From the NCBI RefSeq assembly GCF_002563715.1, contig NZ_PDJJ01000001.1:2356001-2420000 (forward strand): 64,000 bases of DNA, read 5' to 3'. Both the position numbers and the translations under genes were made by a program. This document shows, one piece after another, positions 35,587-42,349 of this stretch. Under the pieces are notes generated by a model. The model was not told where the DNA came from. It ran no database searches and was given only the letters and a program-made list of their open reading frames with translations. Source of the DNA: Isoptericola jiangsuensis. Lineage in GTDB: Bacteria > Actinomycetota > Actinomycetes > Actinomycetales > Cellulomonadaceae. Each line of letters starts with the position of its first letter. Within the stretch, counting starts at the first letter, position 1.

Positions 35587-37403
35587 TTGGTCGTCTCCTC
35601 GTCCTCGGGACGGTCGGCGTCGATCACCGTGGTGGTCGACTGCTGCTTCTCCTCGGCGAGGCTCTCCACGTACTCACGGTGCCCGTTGCGGTCGGGGCCG
35701 CCGTAGATCTGCTCCGAGAGGCCCTTCCGCTGGTCGTGGTTCTCCATCGCGGCGACCTCGGGGTGGTGCAGGTCGAACGCGGGCGACTCGCTGCGGATGC
35801 GGGGCAGCGACGTGAAGTTGTGCCGCGGCGGCGGGCAGGAGGTCGCCCACTCCAGCGAGCGGCCGTAGCCCCACGGGTCGTCGACCTCGACCTTGGGCGC
35901 GTTGCGCCAGGTCGTGTACACGTTCCACAGGAACGGCAGCGTGGAGGCGGCGAGGATGAACGCGCCGACCGTGGAGAGCTGGTTCTCCCAGGTGAAGCCC
36001 TCGTCCGGCATGTAGTCGGCGTAGCGGCGGGCCATGCCCTCGACGCCGAGCCAGTGCTGGACCAGGAACGTCATGTGGAAGCCGACGAACAGGATCCAGA
36101 AGTGGATCTTGCCGAGCCGCTCGTTGAGCATGCGGCCGGTGAACTTGGGCCACCAGAAGTAGAAGCCGGCGAACATCGCGAACACCACGGTGCCGAACAC
36201 GACGTAGTGGAAGTGCGCCACGACGAAGTAGGAGTCGGACAGGTGGAAGTCGAGCGCGGGGCTGGACAGGATGATGCCGGTCAGGCCGCCGAAGAGGAAG
36301 GTCACGAGGAAGCCGATCGACCAGAGCATCGGCGTCTCGAACGTGATCTTGCCGCGCCACATCGTGCCGATCCAGTTGAAGAACTTCACACCGGTCGGGA
36401 TGGCGATGAGCATCGTCATGAAGGCGAAGAACGGCAGCAGGACGGACCCGGTGACGTACATGTGGTGAGCCCACACGGTGACGGACAGCGCCGCGATGGC
36501 GATCGTCGCGTAGATCAGGCCCTTGTAGCCGAAGATCGGCTTACGGCTGAAGACCGGGAAGATCTCCGACACGATGCCGAAGAACGGCAGCGCGATGATG
36601 TACACCTCGGGGTGCCCGAAGAACCAGAAGAGGTGCTGCCACAGGACGGCACCGCCGTTGTCCGGGTTGAAGACCTGCGCGCCGAAGCGGCGGTCGGCAC
36701 CGAGCGCGAACAGCGCGGAGGCCAGCGGGGGGAACGCCATCAGCACGAGGAGGCTGGTGACCAGCGTGTTCCAGGTGAAGATCGGCATGCGGAACATGGT
36801 CATGCCGGGGGCACGCATGCAGATGATCGTGGTGATGAAGTTGACCGCACCGAGGATCGTGCCGAAGCCACCGAGGGCCAGGCCGAACACCCACAAGTCT
36901 CCACCGAGCCCTGGACTGAACGTCGTGTTGGACAGTGGCGCGTAGGCGAACCATCCGAACGAGGCGGCGCCCTGCGGGGTGAAGAAGCCCGCGGCGGCGA
37001 TGAGACCACCGAAGAAGAACAGCCAGTACGCGAACATGTTGAGTCGCGGGAAGGCGACGTCCGGCGCGCCGATCTGCAGGGGCATGATCACGTTGGCGAA
37101 GCCGGCGAACAGCGGGGTCGCGAACAGCAGCAGCATGATCGTGCCGTGCATCGTGAAGAGCTGGTTGTACTGCTCCTTGCTCTGCACGATCTGGATGCCG
37201 GGCATGAAGAGCTCGGCACGGATCAGCAGGGCGAGGATGCCTCCCACGGCGAACCAGAAGAACGACGTGATGAGGTACATGTACCCGATCGTCTTGTGGT
37301 CGGTGGAGGTGATCCACTTGATCACCGTCCGACCCAGGGTCTGGCGCTGCGGCCGCAGACCCGGGATCAGGTCCGCGCCGTGCGCGGTCTCGGTGGCTGC
37401 CAT
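35583..37403 (-). CDS. ctaD: Cytochrome c oxidase subunit I
   Basis: Catalytic haem-copper subunit, 606 residues with twelve spans. [10 protein letters not shown] carries the CuB His and the cross-linked Tyr, AHHMYVTG the other CuB ligands, and AHFHYVVFG the haem a and a3 ligands. [13 protein letters not shown] contains the low-spin haem ligand. A soluble C-terminal tail of about 60 residues ([21 protein letters not shown]) is typical for actinobacteria. Its ATG overlaps the ctaC stop by one base (TGATG). Confidence 0.97.
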
Positions 37404-38329
37404 CAGCCCTCGACCTCCACGGTCTCGTCGTGCGCGGCACCCGAACCGGGGTGCTGCTGGCGGTTGAGGTCGAGCCCGAGCTCGCCGGTCTGGCCCTTGT
37501 CGCGGAGCTCGTCCATCTTCGCGTCGTAGGTGGCGCGGTCGACGACCTGGACGTTGAAGAGCATGCCGGAGTGGAACTCGCCGCAGAGCTCGGCGCACTT
37601 GCCGGCGTAGGTGCCCTCACGCTCGGGGACGACCTGGAACGTGTTCGTCTTGCCCGGGATCATGTCCATCTTGAACAGGAACGCAGGGATCCAGAACGAG
37701 TGGATGACGTCGCGGGAGTCGACGGTGAACTCGACCCGCTCCCCCACCGGCAGGTAGAGGGTGGGGAGCTTGTCGGACGTGCCCACGGCGCCGTCGATCT
37801 CGTCCTCGGCGGTCTCGGAGCCCGGCTCCAGCAGCTGCTGGCCGGTCTCGTACACGTCGTCGTCGAGGTAGTTGAAGTCCCAGCTCCACTGCTTGCCGAT
37901 GACCTGGATGCTGACGTCGGGCTCCTCGGAGGTGTCGAGGATCGCCGTCATGTCGCGGTTCGTGTAGAAGAACAGCACGAGGATCATCAGCAGCGGGACG
38001 ATCGTGTACATGATCTCGAGCGGCATGTGGTAGCGGGTCTGCACGGGCAGCCGGTGGTCGTCGCGACGCTTGCGGTAGGCCGCGACACACCAGAGCATGA
38101 GGCCCCAGGTGATGATGCCGACGATGAGGGCGGCGACCCAGGAGCCGACCCAGAGGTCGGTGATGCGTCCCGTCTGGTTGGTCACCTCGCCGTCCTCGTA
38201 GCCGGGGAGGTAGCCGCGGGAGGCGGCGTCGCTGGCGCAACCGGTGGCGAGACCCGCGACGACGACGGCGAGCGCCGTCGCGCGCAGCGCCAGCGATCGC
38301 CGGTTGCGGGGGGTTCTCTTCGAGTGCAA
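37403..38329 (-). CDS. ctaC: Cytochrome c oxidase subunit II (CuA), lipoprotein
   Basis: 308 residues. Lipobox LATGC (Cys31), two spans (around [19 protein letters not shown] and [16 protein letters not shown]), then the CuA cupredoxin domain with [27 protein letters not shown] and copper site [12 protein letters not shown]. The start is TTG 38329 because GAAAGG lies 6 nt upstream and the signal peptide length is then normal. First gene of the ctaC-ctaD-ctaF operon. Confidence 0.94.
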
Positions 38330-38407
38330 GGGGGGCCTTTCACGTCTCGTCCGACCGACGGCCCCAGGAGCAGGGCGCACGGGTAGACATTCGTCCTCGA
38401 TGGGAGC

Positions 38408-38603: not shown

Positions 38604-39767
38604 GTGACACATCCCACCACCGCTCCCCCGCCCCGCACCCACCTCGACAACGGCGGGTCCGCGCCCCTGCACCCCCTCGCGCGCGAGGCGCTCGCGCAGG
38701 CCCTCGCGGACGGCTGGGCCGACCCCCGGCGCCTCCACGCGGAGGGCCGGCGCGCGGCCGCGCTGCTGGAGGGCGCCCGCGAGGCGGTGGCCACGGTGCT
38801 CGGCGCGCGCCCGCCGGAGGTGCGGTTCACGCCGTCGCACACGGCGTCCCTGCACGCCGCCGTGGCGCAGGTGTCCCGGGCCCGGCGCCGTCAGGGGCGC
38901 GACGTGGTGGTGGCAGCCACCGAGCGCGCCGCGACCCTGCACGCGGCCGAGCACGCCGCGCGGCAGGCCGACGGCCGCCGGGTCGTCGTACCGGTTGACG
39001 GCGTCGCCCGGGTGGACGTCGAGGGGTTCGTGGCGGCCCTCGGCGCGGACGGCGCCGCCCTCGCCGCGCTGCAGCACGCCAACGGCGAGGTGGGCACGGT
39101 CCAGCCGCTCGACGTCGTGCACGCCGCGGCGCGGGAGCACGGCGTGCCCCTGCTGGTCGACGCCGGGTCGAGCGTGGGTCACCTCGCGGTGCCGCACGCG
39201 TGGGACGTGCTCGCCGCCGACCCCGCCGACTGGGGCGGCCCGGCCGGCGTGGGCGTGCTCGCGGTGCGGCACCGCACCCGCACGGCCCCCGTCGGCCCCG
39301 AGGACCCGGACCCGTGGGCGCCCGGCGGTGTGAGCGTGCCCCTGGCGTTCGCGGCCGCCGTGTCCCTCCAGGCGGTGGAGGCGGACCGGGTCGCGCAGGA
39401 CGCCCGGCGCCGTCGCCTCGTCGAGCGGATCCGGTCGGTGGTCGCCGGTGTCCCGGACGTCGAGGTGGTGGGCGACCCGGACGACCGGCTCCCGCACGTG
39501 GTGACGTTCTCGTTCCTCTACGTGGACGGCGAGGCGCTGGTGACGGAGCTCGACCGGGCGGGGTTCGCGGTCGGGTCGGGGTCGGCGTGCACCGCGGCCA
39601 CGCTGGAGCCGTCGCACGTCCTCGCGGCGATGGGCGTCCTCACCCACGGCAACGTGCGCGTCGCGCTGGACCGGTCGACGACCGACGACGACGTCGAGCG
39701 CTTCCTGGCCGTGCTGCCGGGCGCGGTGGCGCGGGTGCGGGCGATGCTCGGGGCGGACGGGCTGTGA
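38604..39767 (+). CDS. Cysteine-desulfurase-like class V aminotransferase-fold protein without any lysine
   Basis: 387 residues along the NifS/IscS fold: THLDNGGSAPLHP at the N-terminus, ALQHANGEVGTVQPL (Asn160), LLVDAGSSVG (Asp186), and the catalytic-cysteine loop GSGSACTAATLEPSH (Cys329) with LTHGNVRVALD. The PLP-lysine motif (family SHKFGGPKG) reads PADWGGPAG at 207-215, so the Schiff-base Lys is Asp209. The stacking His (family TEHKAV) is Arg108 in TERAAT, and the Gln of DAAQSVG is Ser. No lysine occurs anywhere, so PLP cannot be bound as an internal aldimine. GTG overlaps nothing upstream; its stop overlaps the tusA start. Probably a sulfur carrier scaffold or pseudoenzyme. Confidence 0.85.
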   Translation: MTHPTTAPPPRTHLDNGGSAPLHPLAREALAQALADGWADPRRLHAEGRRAAALLEGAREAVATVLGARPPEVRFTPSHTASLHAAVAQVSRARRRQGRDVVVAATERAATLHAAEHAARQADGRRVVVPVDGVARVDVEGFVAALGADGAALAALQHANGEVGTVQPLDVVHAAAREHGVPLLVDAGSSVGHLAVPHAWDVLAADPADWGGPAGVGVLAVRHRTRTAPVGPEDPDPWAPGGVSVPLAFAAAVSLQAVEADRVAQDARRRRLVERIRSVVAGVPDVEVVGDPDDRLPHVVTFSFLYVDGEALVTELDRAGFAVGSGSACTAATLEPSHVLAAMGVLTHGNVRVALDRSTTDDDVERFLAVLPGAVARVRAMLGADGL

Positions 39768-40063
39768 CGACGCCCGGCGGGACGCCTGACGCGGCCGCCC
39801 CGGAGCACGTGGTGGACGCGCGCGGTCTGCGCTGCCCCCTGCCCGTGGTCCGGCTGGCGGCGCTGGCACGGGACCTGGCGCCCGGAACCGTGGTCGCCGT
39901 CCTGGCGACCGACCCCGCGGCCCGGCACGACGTCCCGGCGTGGGCCCGGATGCGCGGTCACGCCACGACGGGCGAGGAGCTCGTGGAGCCGCCTGACGGC
40001 GACGGTCGCGCGGACGACCCGCACGAGCGCTGGTGGCGGCTCACGGTGCGCCTGGGCGGCTGA
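39764..40063 (+). CDS. tusA: TusA-family sulfur carrier protein
   Basis: 99 residues; TusA fold with VDARGLRCPLPVVRL, where Cys24 of the CPxP motif accepts a persulfide, and VVAVLATDPAARHDVPAW. The rest is a standard TusA core with a polar C-terminal tail. GTGA overlap with the lysine-free desulfurase-like gene couples translation, so the two very probably act together in sulfur transfer. In some actinobacteria I recall the two domains fused in one protein. Confidence 0.88.
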   Translation: MTTPGGTPDAAAPEHVVDARGLRCPLPVVRLAALARDLAPGTVVAVLATDPAARHDVPAWARMRGHATTGEELVEPPDGDGRADDPHERWWRLTVRLGG

Positions 40064-40158: not shown

Positions 40159-40509
40159 TCAGCTGAAGGAGCCCCCGCAGGCGCAGGCCTCGCCGGCGTT
40201 GGGGTTGTCGATCGTGAAGCCCTGCTTCTCGATGGTGTCCGCGAAGTCGATCTTCGCGCCCTCGAGGTAGGGGACGCTCATGCGGTCGACGACGACCTCG
40301 ACGCCGTCGAAGTCGCGCAGCGCGTCGCCGTCGAGCAGGCGCTCGTCGAAGTAGAGCTGGTAGATCAGGCCGGAGCAGCCACCGGGCTGCACGGCGACGC
40401 GCAGGCGCAGGTCGTCGCGGCCCTCCTGCTCGAGGAGGCTGCGGACCTTGTCCGCGGCGACCTGGGAGAGGTCGACGCCGTGCGTGGCGATGTCGGTCGT
40501 GTCGGTCAT
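40159..40509 (-). CDS. erpA: A-type iron-sulfur cluster insertion protein
   Basis: 116 residues of the IscA/ErpA/SufA family, which hand iron-sulfur clusters to apo-proteins such as NadA and LipA (both in this window) and QcrA. The three ligand cysteines are Cys45 in GGCSGLIY and Cys109/Cys111 in CACGGSF. GGAGG lies 4 nt before the ATG. Corresponds to Rv2204c of M. tuberculosis by position. Confidence 0.93.
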   Translation of the reverse strand: MTDTTDIATHGVDLSQVAADKVRSLLEQEGRDDLRLRVAVQPGGCSGLIYQLYFDERLLDGDALRDFDGVEVVVDRMSVPYLEGAKIDFADTIEKQGFTIDNPNAGEACACGGSFS

Positions 40510-40583: not shown

Positions 40584-41099
40584 TCACACCGGGCCGGTCG
40601 CGTCCGTGCGCGGGGCGGGGCACCAGGTGCGGGCGACGCGCGCGACGCGGCCCGGGTCGACGGGGTCGCCGACGTCGTGGGCGCCGGCGACCCCGGCGGC
40701 GGCGAGGGCACGCCGGGTGGTGCGGTCCTCACCGGTCAGGACGACGACGGGCACGGCGTGTGGCGCGGCGGCGCGGGCGGCCTCGGCCACGGGGCCGTCG
40801 TGGAGCGCGGCGGTGTCGAGGACCGCGACGTGGACGACGACGAGGTCGGCGGCGCCGACCTGCTCGTGCAGGCGGGCCAGCGCCGTCGGCACCGGGGGCG
40901 CGGTGACGCTGCCCAGGCCGAGCGCCGTCGTGGGGACGAACACGCCGGCCGGGGCGGTCGCGACGTCCGGCCCCGGGTGCACCGTGCGGGACGGGGGCGG
41001 CAGGACGACCCCGTCGACGGTGCACCGCGGCGCGGCCCCGGACCACAGGGCGGCGAGGTCGGCGGAGGCGTCGTCGGCGGTCACCAGGAGCACGTGCAC
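40584..41099 (-). CDS. Short glycerate-kinase-like protein (C-terminal part only)
   Basis: 171 residues. The stretch AADLVVVHVAVLDTAALHDG with HAVPVVVLTGEDRTTRRALAAAGV and AGAHDV resembles the C-terminal Rossmann part of GarK-type glycerate kinases (family about 370 residues; typical GADLVLTGEG). The acidic-glycine motif is altered and the N-terminal substrate domain is missing. In M. tuberculosis the same position, next to the ErpA gene, holds a glycerate-kinase-like gene (Rv2205c, from memory). GTG 41099 follows CACGAT by 6 nt. Probably a reduced, non-kinase remnant; function unknown. Confidence 0.5.
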   Translation of the reverse strand: MHVLLVTADDASADLAALWSGAAPRCTVDGVVLPPPSRTVHPGPDVATAPAGVFVPTTALGLGSVTAPPVPTALARLHEQVGAADLVVVHVAVLDTAALHDGPVAEAARAAAPHAVPVVVLTGEDRTTRRALAAAGVAGAHDVGDPVDPGRVARVARTWCPAPRTDATGPV

Positions 41100-41105
41100 G
41101 ACTCG

Positions 41106-41136
41106 ATCGTGGCACATCCTGGCGTCGTGGGAAGAT
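41106..41136. promoter_or_regulatory. Divergent leaderless promoters, glycerate-kinase-like / nadA
   Basis: Minus CACGAT (41111-41106) is 6 nt before GTG 41099. Plus GAAGAT (41131-41136) is 7 nt before GTG 41144. Confidence 0.45.
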
Positions 41137-41143
41137 GGCCCTC

Positions 41144-42349
41144 GTGAGCACTCTGCTGAACGAGACCTCGACGTTCGTCGAGCCGGCCGCGTCCCCGCTG
41201 CTGCTGCTCGGCCAGGGCCGCGACCTCGCCTCGGAGCGCGGGGTCGAGTGCACGGGCGCGCTGCCCGCGGCGTCCGACCCCGACCTCGTGGAGCGCGCGA
41301 GGGCGGCCCGGGCGGCCCTCGGCGACCGGGCGTTCGTCCTCGGCCACCACTACCAGCGCGACGAGGTCATCGACTTCGCGGACGTGACCGGCGACTCGTT
41401 CAAGCTCGCCCAGCGGGCCGCGGCCCGCCCGGAGGCGGAGTTCGTCATCTTCTGCGGCGTGCACTTCATGGCCGAGTCGGCGGACATCCTCACCACGGAC
41501 GCCCAGCAGGTCGTGCTGCCGGACATGGCGGCGGGCTGCTCGATGGCGGACATGGCCGAGATCGGTCAGGTCGAGGAGGCCTGGGCCGTCCTGGAGGACG
41601 CCGGGATCGCCGGCGACACCGTGCCCGTGACCTACATGAACTCGACGGCCGCGATCAAGGCGTTCACGGGTCGCCACGGCGGCACGGTGTGCACGTCCTC
41701 GAACGCCCAGGTGGCGCTGCGCTGGGCGTTCGACAAGGTCGGCGGCGTGGACGGCACGGGCAAGGTGCTGTTCATGCCGGACCAGCACCTGGGCCGCAAC
41801 ACCGCCGTGCTGCAGCTCGGCATGAGCCTCGACGACTGCGTGGTGTTCGACCCGCGCAAGCCCGGTGGCGGCCTGACCGCCCAGGAGCTGCGGGACGCCC
41901 GGATGATCCTGTGGCGCGGGCACTGCTCGGTGCACGGCCGGTTCTCGGAGCGCAACGTCACCGACGTCCGCGCGAAGGTGCCCGGCGTCAACGTCCTGGT
42001 GCACCCGGAGTGCAAGCACGAGGTCGTCACGGCGGCCGACCTGGTGGGCTCGACGGAGTTCATCATCAAGACGCTCGACGCGGCCGAGCCGGGCTCGTCG
42101 TGGGCCATCGGCACGGAGCTGAACCTGGTGCGTCGCGTCGCCGCGGCCCACCCGGACAAGCAGGTGCACTACCTGGACTCCACGGTGTGCTTCTGCTCGA
42201 CGATGAACCGCATCGACCTGCCGCACCTGGTGTGGGCCATGGAGTCCCTGCTGGAGGGCCGCGTGGTCAACCGGATCGTGGTCGACGCGGACGACGCCCA
42301 CTGGGCCCGCGTGGCCCTCGACCAGATGCTGGCGCTGCCGGGGATCTGA
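41144..42349 (+). CDS. nadA: Quinolinate synthase A
   Basis: Makes quinolinate from iminoaspartate and DHAP in NAD synthesis, using a [4Fe-4S] cluster. 401 residues from GTG 41144 (ATG 41135 would add three). Hallmarks: LGHHYQRDEVIDFAD, FCGVHFMAESA (Cys104), DMAAGCSMADM, MPDQHLGRNTA, HPECKHEV and STVCFCSTMNRID. Cluster ligands are the Cys in FCGVHF, HPEC and the CFC segment. No nadB or nadC nearby, unlike the usual nadABC operon. Confidence 0.95.
   Translation: MSTLLNETSTFVEPAASPLLLLGQGRDLASERGVECTGALPAASDPDLVERARAARAALGDRAFVLGHHYQRDEVIDFADVTGDSFKLAQRAAARPEAEFVIFCGVHFMAESADILTTDAQQVVLPDMAAGCSMADMAEIGQVEEAWAVLEDAGIAGDTVPVTYMNSTAAIKAFTGRHGGTVCTSSNAQVALRWAFDKVGGVDGTGKVLFMPDQHLGRNTAVLQLGMSLDDCVVFDPRKPGGGLTAQELRDARMILWRGHCSVHGRFSERNVTDVRAKVPGVNVLVHPECKHEVVTAADLVGSTEFIIKTLDAAEPGSSWAIGTELNLVRRVAAAHPDKQVHYLDSTVCFCSTMNRIDLPHLVWAMESLLEGRVVNRIVVDADDAHWARVALDQMLALPGI

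Follow-up and report, generated by a model that had tools for sequence, protein, structure and literature searches.

A lysine-less desulfurase-like gene overlapping tusA

The window (the whole 64,000-nucleotide stretch analyzed here, taken from the high-GC, 4.04-Mb genome of Isoptericola jiangsuensis) harbors a gene for an IscS/NifS-like protein followed by tusA (Table 1). Retranslation agreed with what the preliminary description had read: the 387-residue product contains not a single lysine; its PLP-lysine site, within PADWGGPAG (residues 207 to 215), is occupied by Asp209; Arg108 and Ser189 stand in place of the stacking histidine and the active-site glutamine; and Cys329 is retained in an intact loop, GSGSACTAATLEPSH. 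The overlap of the stop codon with the tusA start was found as described, the TGA (positions 39765 to 39767) and the GTG start sharing four bases, GTGA.

Table 1. Features of the locus and key residues of the 387-residue protein, with residue counts among lysine-bearing and lysine-less orthologues
Feature	Position in window	Strand	Evidence or conservation
IscS/NifS-like (class V aminotransferase family) protein without PLP lysine	38604–39767	+	387 aa, no Lys; PF00266, 135 bits
Arg108, stacking-His site (His104 of E. coli IscS)	38925–38927	+	His in 96/96 lysine-bearing; lysine-less (n = 152) Arg 121, His 28, Gln 2, Ser 1
Asp186 (Asp180 of E. coli IscS, PLP N1 contact)	39159–39161	+	Asp in 96/96 and 152/152
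Ser189 (Gln183 in IscS)	39168–39170	+	Gln in 48/96 lysine-bearing; lysine-less Ala 125, Ser 23, Gly 3, Val 1
Asp206 (Ser of the SAHK motif in lysine-bearing orthologues)	39219–39221	+	Ser in 96/96 lysine-bearing; Asp in 124/152 lysine-less
Asp209, PLP-Schiff-base lysine column	39228–39230	+	Lysine-less D 110, S 19, A 12, T 5, G 2, Q 2, E 1, R 1
Cys329 (persulfide Cys328 of E. coli IscS, Cys321 of A. fulgidus IscS)	39588–39590	+	Cys in 96/96 and in 151/151 readable lysine-less
His348, beyond the Cys loop	39645–39647	+	His in 122/122 lysine-less with adjacent tusA, 10/29 without
Arg352 (substrate-carboxylate Arg354 of E. coli IscS)	39657–39659	+	Arg in 96/96 and in 151/151 readable lysine-less
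tusA	39764–40063	+	99 aa; PF01206, 61.4 bits (cut-off 28.6)
ctaC, cytochrome c oxidase subunit II, start uncertain	37403–38380	-	PF00116; synteny; divergent neighbor
erpA-like A-type Fe-S carrier	40159–40509	-	PF01521; synteny; convergent neighbor
nadA, quinolinate synthase	41135–42349	+	PF02445; wider conserved neighbor

The protein belongs to the class V aminotransferase family, since its PF00266 (Aminotran_5) match spans residues 13 to 367 and its matches to IscS entries in the PDB reach E values down to 1.4e-50. None of the 19 NCBIfam models listed for it passed the equivalog cut-off, the best being NifS (207.6 bits, cut-off 530.75), while the IscS model gave 139.9 bits (cut-off 643.2). 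Of the features of a group I cysteine desulfurase (IscS/NifS), it has the catalytic Cys loop and the substrate arginine (Cys329 and Arg352), and it lacks the Schiff-base lysine (Asp209), the stacking histidine (Arg108) and the PLP-phosphate Ser/His (Asp206 and Ala208). The absence of lysine from the entire protein adds little to its absence from the PLP site because the family as such is poor in lysine: of 89 lysine-bearing orthologues without a fusion, 32 contain a single one. Among eight neighboring window proteins counted, seven contain 3 to 13 lysines and TusA contains none.

TusA itself has the Cys-Pro acceptor motif expected with PF01206, its acceptor Cys24 (positions 39833 to 39835) lying within RCPLP, and it is the only PF01206 match in the window genome (E up to 0.001). 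The placement of the desulfurase-like gene between divergent ctaC and convergent erpA, with tusA following it, is that of an actinobacterial desulfurase-TusA family found at the cytochrome oxidase (cox) locus. A conserved small gene lies between erpA and nadA (positions 40584 to 41117, minus strand), with a weak glycerate-kinase match below the cut-off (20.3 versus 23.3 bits). At two other loci, L026 and L077, the desulfurase gene and tusA are flipped together with respect to the surrounding genes, so that erpA, the desulfurase gene, tusA, ctaC and ctaD are all co-oriented.

Orthologues with and without the lysine

An orthologue was present in 38 of the 58 genomes searched (window genome included; 40 to 100% identity), and the lysine at the PLP column was absent from all 38. 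The preliminary description had left room for a single mutant or a hidden frameshift; the former is ruled out by this shared absence and the latter by the motif that the orthologues have in common. In the same lysine-less genomes, the housekeeping IscS paralogue kept its HK in 19 of 19 cases read, a 20th region being a placeholder without the gene.

What that description had overlooked are the lysine-bearing orthologues outside this clade. Of 248 unique family sequences, 96 carry the lysine and 152 do not. This set was obtained by merging identical proteins and removing the paralogues L003 and L047 to L056 before counting, and it retains a few near-duplicates that differ in the chosen start, such as L125 and L191. 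One partial sequence (L041) lacks the Cys loop; alignments A1 and A2 do not include L046, whose matched stretch is interrupted by a stop.

The two kinds are unevenly distributed. Among 80 named public-genome loci, the lysine is missing in 74, including Cellulomonas, Promicromonospora, Oerskovia, Cellulosimicrobium, Sanguibacter and others, whereas 6 with the same gene setting keep SAHKWGGP, namely five Kribbella loci (L128, L129, L131, L132 and L135) and one of Phytoactinopolyspora (L125). Two records, L061 (Sphaerisporangium cinnabarinum) and L087 (a Proteobacteria MAG), have titles that clash with their Cellulomonadaceae-like sequence and synteny and are probably mislabeled. An order-wide search of 347 genomes gave an orthologue-level match (E up to 2.1e-88) in 88 and none in 259, and none of the 74 order orthologues read had the lysine. 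This calls for caution: desulfurase models match such genes, yet no order orthologue read could be a lysine-based desulfurase.

At the class level, the lysine was kept in 56 of 59 regions and absent from L202, L207 and L218, of which L218 belongs to the order of the window; these frequencies are biased, as the 59 useful regions (60 minus one placeholder) were hand-chosen from the best matches among 394 class genomes. In the same phylum outside the class, nine sequences were fetched, and both the lysine and His348 were kept in all eight that were readable (L367 was not among them). Within family f45 (81 genomes searched), the lysine is missing in 5 of 36 unique sequences (L202, L259, L273, L283 and L326), and in the single f40 genome searched, L207 lacks it. 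In genomes of family f37 (L179 to L183), which we take to be Streptomyces-like, desulfurase and TusA form a single protein of 455 to 469 residues with the lysine kept. No cox match was seen in the fetched stretch at L213, L216, L217, L221 and L224. Taken together, these data suggest that the family is an old desulfurase-TusA pair of Actinobacteria that usually sits beside cytochrome oxidase genes. One 1.9-Mb genome gave two matches, L324 (G552:C6) and G552:C1:3382-4452; L324 has no cox neighbor in the fetched stretch and a strongly altered Cys loop, GCGCTCGRHPSG, which nevertheless aligned as Cys.

Residues lost and kept around the PLP site

We compared the 96 lysine-bearing with the 152 lysine-less sequences position by position (Table 1). 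The retention of Cys329, noted at first in the window protein only, extends to all 151 readable lysine-less sequences. Glu162 and Asp186 are invariant in every sequence, Asn160 is present in 93 of 96 lysine-bearing and 152 of 152 lysine-less sequences, and Gly349 in 96 of 96 and 151 of 151 readable ones. Of the substitutions that had been pointed out at positions 108 and 209, Arg108 is found in 121 of the 152 lysine-less sequences and Asp209 in 110, eight residues in all occurring at the latter column. In 7 of the 152, a Gln stands one column before 189.

Twenty positions are conserved in the presence of the lysine and variable in its absence. Ten of them (78 to 80, 109, 206 to 209, 212 and 213) fall in PLP-site motifs. 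The other ten (22, 26, 72, 75, 89, 111, 119, which is a gap column, 216, 221 and 257) lie elsewhere, so that part of the change reflects general relaxation. Among the 152 lysine-less sequences, Gly remains at position 79 in 20 and Thr at position 80 in 93. Position 206 is presumably on the PLP-phosphate side, by analogy with IscS. The loss of phosphate-side residues argues against the use of PLP. Since Gln is present at position 189 in just half of the lysine-bearing sequences, the erosion may have begun before the lysine was lost.

It seems very improbable that the protein still holds PLP or some other cofactor non-covalently and uses it for a different chemistry. Asn160, Glu162, Asp186 and Arg352 of the pocket are indeed invariant in lysine-less sequences, and both E. 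coli IscS K206A and Archaeoglobus fulgidus IscS are described in passages of PMC9978102 and PMC9769115 as holding PLP without the lysine. However, the phosphate-side positions 79, 206 and 208 are changed in most lysine-less sequences, the stacking histidine is replaced in 124 of 152, and a column that admits eight residues at position 209 does not fit such a use.

The lysine-less protein is under purifying selection. For 11 hand-picked lysine-less pairs, two of which share a sequence, dN/dS was 0.09 to 0.21 (Nei-Gojobori, own script); in f45, three mixed and two lysine-bearing pairs gave 0.24 to 0.33. A pseudogene is ruled out by these dN/dS values.

Repeated loss of the lysine

In a tree of 114 sequences, a hand-picked subset from which the trait columns were excluded, the distribution of lysine versus any other residue required seven changes, at least six of them forced by the starred branches; the tree of all sequences likewise gave seven. 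Because the outgroups carry the lysine, these changes are losses. Forcing all lysine-less sequences into a single clade was worse by 291 log-likelihood units (p-AU 3.5e-11, in a test that assumes a group named before the tree, whereas ours was named after the tree was seen). A single origin of the lysine loss is rejected.

Some losses separate close relatives. L202 (AAQW) and L260 (AHKW), from one genus, are sisters at a support of 99. Same-genus sister species with and without the lysine, in an equal gene setting, were found three times: G732 with and G420 without; G743 and G764 with and G756 without; and G763 and G774 with and G769 without. Five of the six isolated losses also altered Ser206, which is invariant in all 96 lysine-bearing sequences, and this makes an assembly error unlikely in these cases. 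The exception is L283, in which a Lys-to-Arg change is the only one at the motif; it may represent either an error or a first step. Such sister species represent a natural experiment on the role of a Cys loop in the absence of PLP and on the requirements of TusA in organisms with one TusA match.

We also counted independent pairs in which loss of the lysine could be compared with changes at Ser206, His161 and His108 and with the presence of tusA. Only five supported pairs were available for each, too few to reach 0.05. The average numbers of pairs changing the same way were 4.0 for Ser206, 1.1 for His161 and 0.3 for His108; for tusA, they were 0.1 the same way and 1.0 the other way. These five pairs give no support to lysine loss as a cause of tusA loss.

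Linkage to tusA and the coupling of His348

An adjacent tusA accompanies 122 of 151 lysine-less and 93 of 95 lysine-bearing sequences (one of each kind was too short). The neighborhood pointed out in the preliminary description therefore holds for most lysine-less genes, but not for 29 of 151, which keep Cys329 all the same. One lysine-bearing locus scored as lacking tusA, L260, has a TusA match just downstream on the opposite strand. The four-base overlap is present in 109 of the 122 lysine-less cases with tusA, and the TusA cysteine is retained in 120 of 121 proteins with a lysine-less partner and in 92 of 92 with a lysine-bearing one.

Among the positions at least 97% conserved in lysine-less sequences with tusA, His348 shows the biggest drop in those without it (Table 1). 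In eight supported independent lysine-less pairs differing in tusA, His348 changed the same way in 6.0 on average and the other way in 0.0 (median p 0.031, range 0.016 to 0.063, for a site chosen after the alignment had been seen). In the lysine-bearing sequences with tusA, His348 is missing in 13 of 93, nine of which have Glu, like the fusions. Borderline and post hoc as it is, the coupling between His348 and tusA favors a real partnership in the lysine-less state.

At the tusA-less loci, 27 of which were measured, an erpA match lies 52 to 188 bases past the stop and no gene replaces tusA. We looked for TusA elsewhere in 17 tusA-less genomes: three had none (G490, G514 and G717), eight had it solely within an open frame of 833 to 909 residues, and six had only a weaker match elsewhere (best E 4.7e-8 to 2.8e-6). 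A TusA domain in such an off-locus open frame of 833 to 909 residues, a TusA-bearing protein of another kind, was seen in G021, G043, G586, G527, G479, G681, G709, G700, G644, G502 and G034. Three further genomes of the window's order, G026, G036 and G055, had neither an orthologue-level desulfurase-like match nor a TusA match (3 of 3 such genomes checked).

Cys329 was retained in 29 of 29 tusA-less lysine-less sequences. This indicates that Cys329 has some role independent of TusA and speaks against TusA as its sole partner. The main rival to a TusA-based function follows from this: the protein could be a scaffold resembling A. fulgidus IscS, in which Cys329, rather than carrying a persulfide, would be a ligand of an Fe-S or other metal center during its assembly or transfer, with SufU or the neighboring ErpA as partner. 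Such a role, which we consider unlikely, would explain Cys329 in the absence of tusA; erpA is the convergent neighbor at most loci, and the closest solved structure, that of A. fulgidus IscS, has an Asp, no desulfurase activity and a ligand cysteine, according to passages of PMC7585200 and PMC9769115. However, the neighbor here is TusA and not IscU, erpA adjoins lysine-bearing orthologues too, the single NifU_N match of the window genome is beside the SufS-like gene L001, and the coupling of His348 to tusA would be left unexplained.

The loci without tusA may also be seen as a module on its way out, with desulfurase activity becoming dispensable and then tusA and finally the gene being lost. 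In favor of this, 29 of 151 lysine-less versus 2 of 95 lysine-bearing sequences have no tusA next to them, 259 of the 347 order genomes have no orthologue-level match, and a stepwise erosion from Gln189 to the lysine to the histidine would fit. We nevertheless regard it as improbable, given that the reading frames are intact, that dN/dS is 0.09 to 0.21 in the 11 lysine-less pairs against 0.24 to 0.33 in the mixed and lysine-bearing f45 pairs, and that Cys329 and Arg352 are unchanged in 151 of 151 readable sequences.

A possible sulfur relay or docking role with TusA

Our preferred, though tentative, explanation is that the protein works without PLP catalysis and either relays sulfur through Cys329 to TusA or docks and stabilizes TusA. 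The ancestor would have been a cysteine desulfurase working with TusA beside cytochrome oxidase genes; in the lineage of the window, PLP catalysis would have been lost and Cys329 kept as the working residue. Sulfane sulfur may reach Cys329 from a lysine-bearing desulfurase of the same genome (the IscS paralogue or SufS) and then be handed to Cys24 of TusA; alternatively, the protein might dock and stabilize TusA for the transfer. In the window genome, at least three further class V proteins have the lysine: the SufS-like L001 beside the NifU_N gene, L002, and an IscS paralogue with GHK.

This explanation builds on features read from sequence comparison, namely orthology, the repeated lysine loss, the upkeep of Cys329, Arg352 and the TusA cysteine, the tusA linkage in most sequences and the coupling of His348 to tusA. 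The lack of PLP binding, a persulfide on Cys329, the sulfur donor, the transfer to TusA and the eventual use of the sulfur are each steps that we infer. The preliminary description had proposed a PLP-independent relay or scaffold acting with TusA. That proposal is still the best fit, in line with an old shared loss and purifying selection, but the 29 of 151 sequences without tusA indicate that TusA is not the whole story.

The presence of a lysine-bearing paralogue in 19 of 19 lysine-less genomes read would also suit a catalytically dead subunit acting on the active IscS paralogue, either by pairing with it or by regulating it, the conservation of the dead subunit then reflecting dimer and partner surfaces. 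IscS dimerizes mainly via the large domain, which also holds PLP, as stated in a passage of PMC2854127, and activators that are dead paralogues are known (part of PMC5201418). We regard this, too, as improbable: no positional tie of the gene to iscS was seen, a purely structural role would not require conservation of the Cys loop, and lysine-bearing orthologues living with the same paralogue must have changed role.

Returning to the TusA-linked relay, a broader claim is conceivable, which we hold with somewhat more reserve: within Actinobacteria, a desulfurase family may have given rise, on about seven independent occasions, to a PLP-free, TusA-linked sulfur-relay protein that relies on its loop cysteine only. 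If this is true, the part of a desulfurase that passes on the persulfide can evolve and persist without the part that generates the sulfur. Desulfurases are treated as having one function, to make sulfur and pass it on; here, the two parts would have been separated several times.

Comparison with known systems

The best PDB match of the 387-residue protein is IscS of A. fulgidus (entries 4eb5, 4eb7 and 4hvk). Like the window protein, it belongs to the class V family, has an Asp at the PLP-lysine column, an intact Cys loop (GSAC...PSHVL) and a His at the column of position 348; the sequence of entry 4r5f, a variant of A. fulgidus IscS, has a Lys at the Asp column. In parts of PMC7585200, the protein is described as having no desulfurase activity, which is attributed to the Asp replacing the lysine, and its cysteine as coordinating the [2Fe-2S] cluster in IscU. 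A passage of PMC9769115 names this ligand as Cys321 and shows PLP in 4EB5, and PMC5668364 also mentions the complex with IscU.

The window protein thus shares with A. fulgidus IscS the replacement of Lys by Asp and the retained Cys loop. It lacks an adjoining IscU gene: its neighbor is tusA, and the only NifU_N match of the genome lies away from it. A. fulgidus IscS is archaeal and has IscU as partner, whereas the genomic partner here is tusA. It also keeps GAT at 78 to 80 and a His at the column of position 108 and has Leu at the column of Arg352. In the lysine-less family of the window protein, by contrast, the phosphate side and mostly the stacking histidine are gone and Arg352 is invariant. 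Since the losses described here arose within an actinobacterial family, they look convergent with that of A. fulgidus, in a comparison made without a joint tree including the archaeal protein.

A second lysine-less IscS homologue is IscS1 of Methanosarcina acetivorans, which according to a passage of PMC7585200 is also without the lysine and belongs to one of three methanogen IscSU sets, discussed together with IscU1. That passage mentions no link to TusA, unlike the window protein with its tusA neighbor. These two proteins are a precedent (PMC7585200, in part) for a variant that the preliminary description had taken to be undescribed. Among the literature matches listed (titles and abstract starts), we found no lysine-less bacterial desulfurase, no dead desulfurase and no desulfurase-TusA fusion in Actinobacteria.

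The E. coli IscS-TusA pair (PDB 3LVJ and 3LVK) resembles the window pair in combining an IscS-family protein with a TusA acceptor, a Cys-loop donor and an acceptor cysteine on TusA. A passage of PMC2854127 places the donor and acceptor cysteines of these structures about 4 Å apart. E. coli IscS differs in being PLP-dependent through Lys206 and in serving many acceptors, both of which are described in PMC2854127. Parts of PMC9978102 report that the K206A, H104Q and Q183E variants lose activity and that K206A has no desulfurase activity but retains some PLP. The loss of the lysine alone is thus not proof that PLP is absent.

The f37 fusions share the orthologous family and the locus with the window gene and have TusA as their C-terminal domain; at most other loci, the two genes corresponding to the fusion overlap by four bases. 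They differ in having retained the lysine, Ser206 and His108 and are presumably active desulfurases. A lysine-less IscS is therefore a kind of protein already known; as far as these comparisons go, what sets this case apart is the TusA partner, the side of the pocket that is dismantled, the host and the repeated origin.
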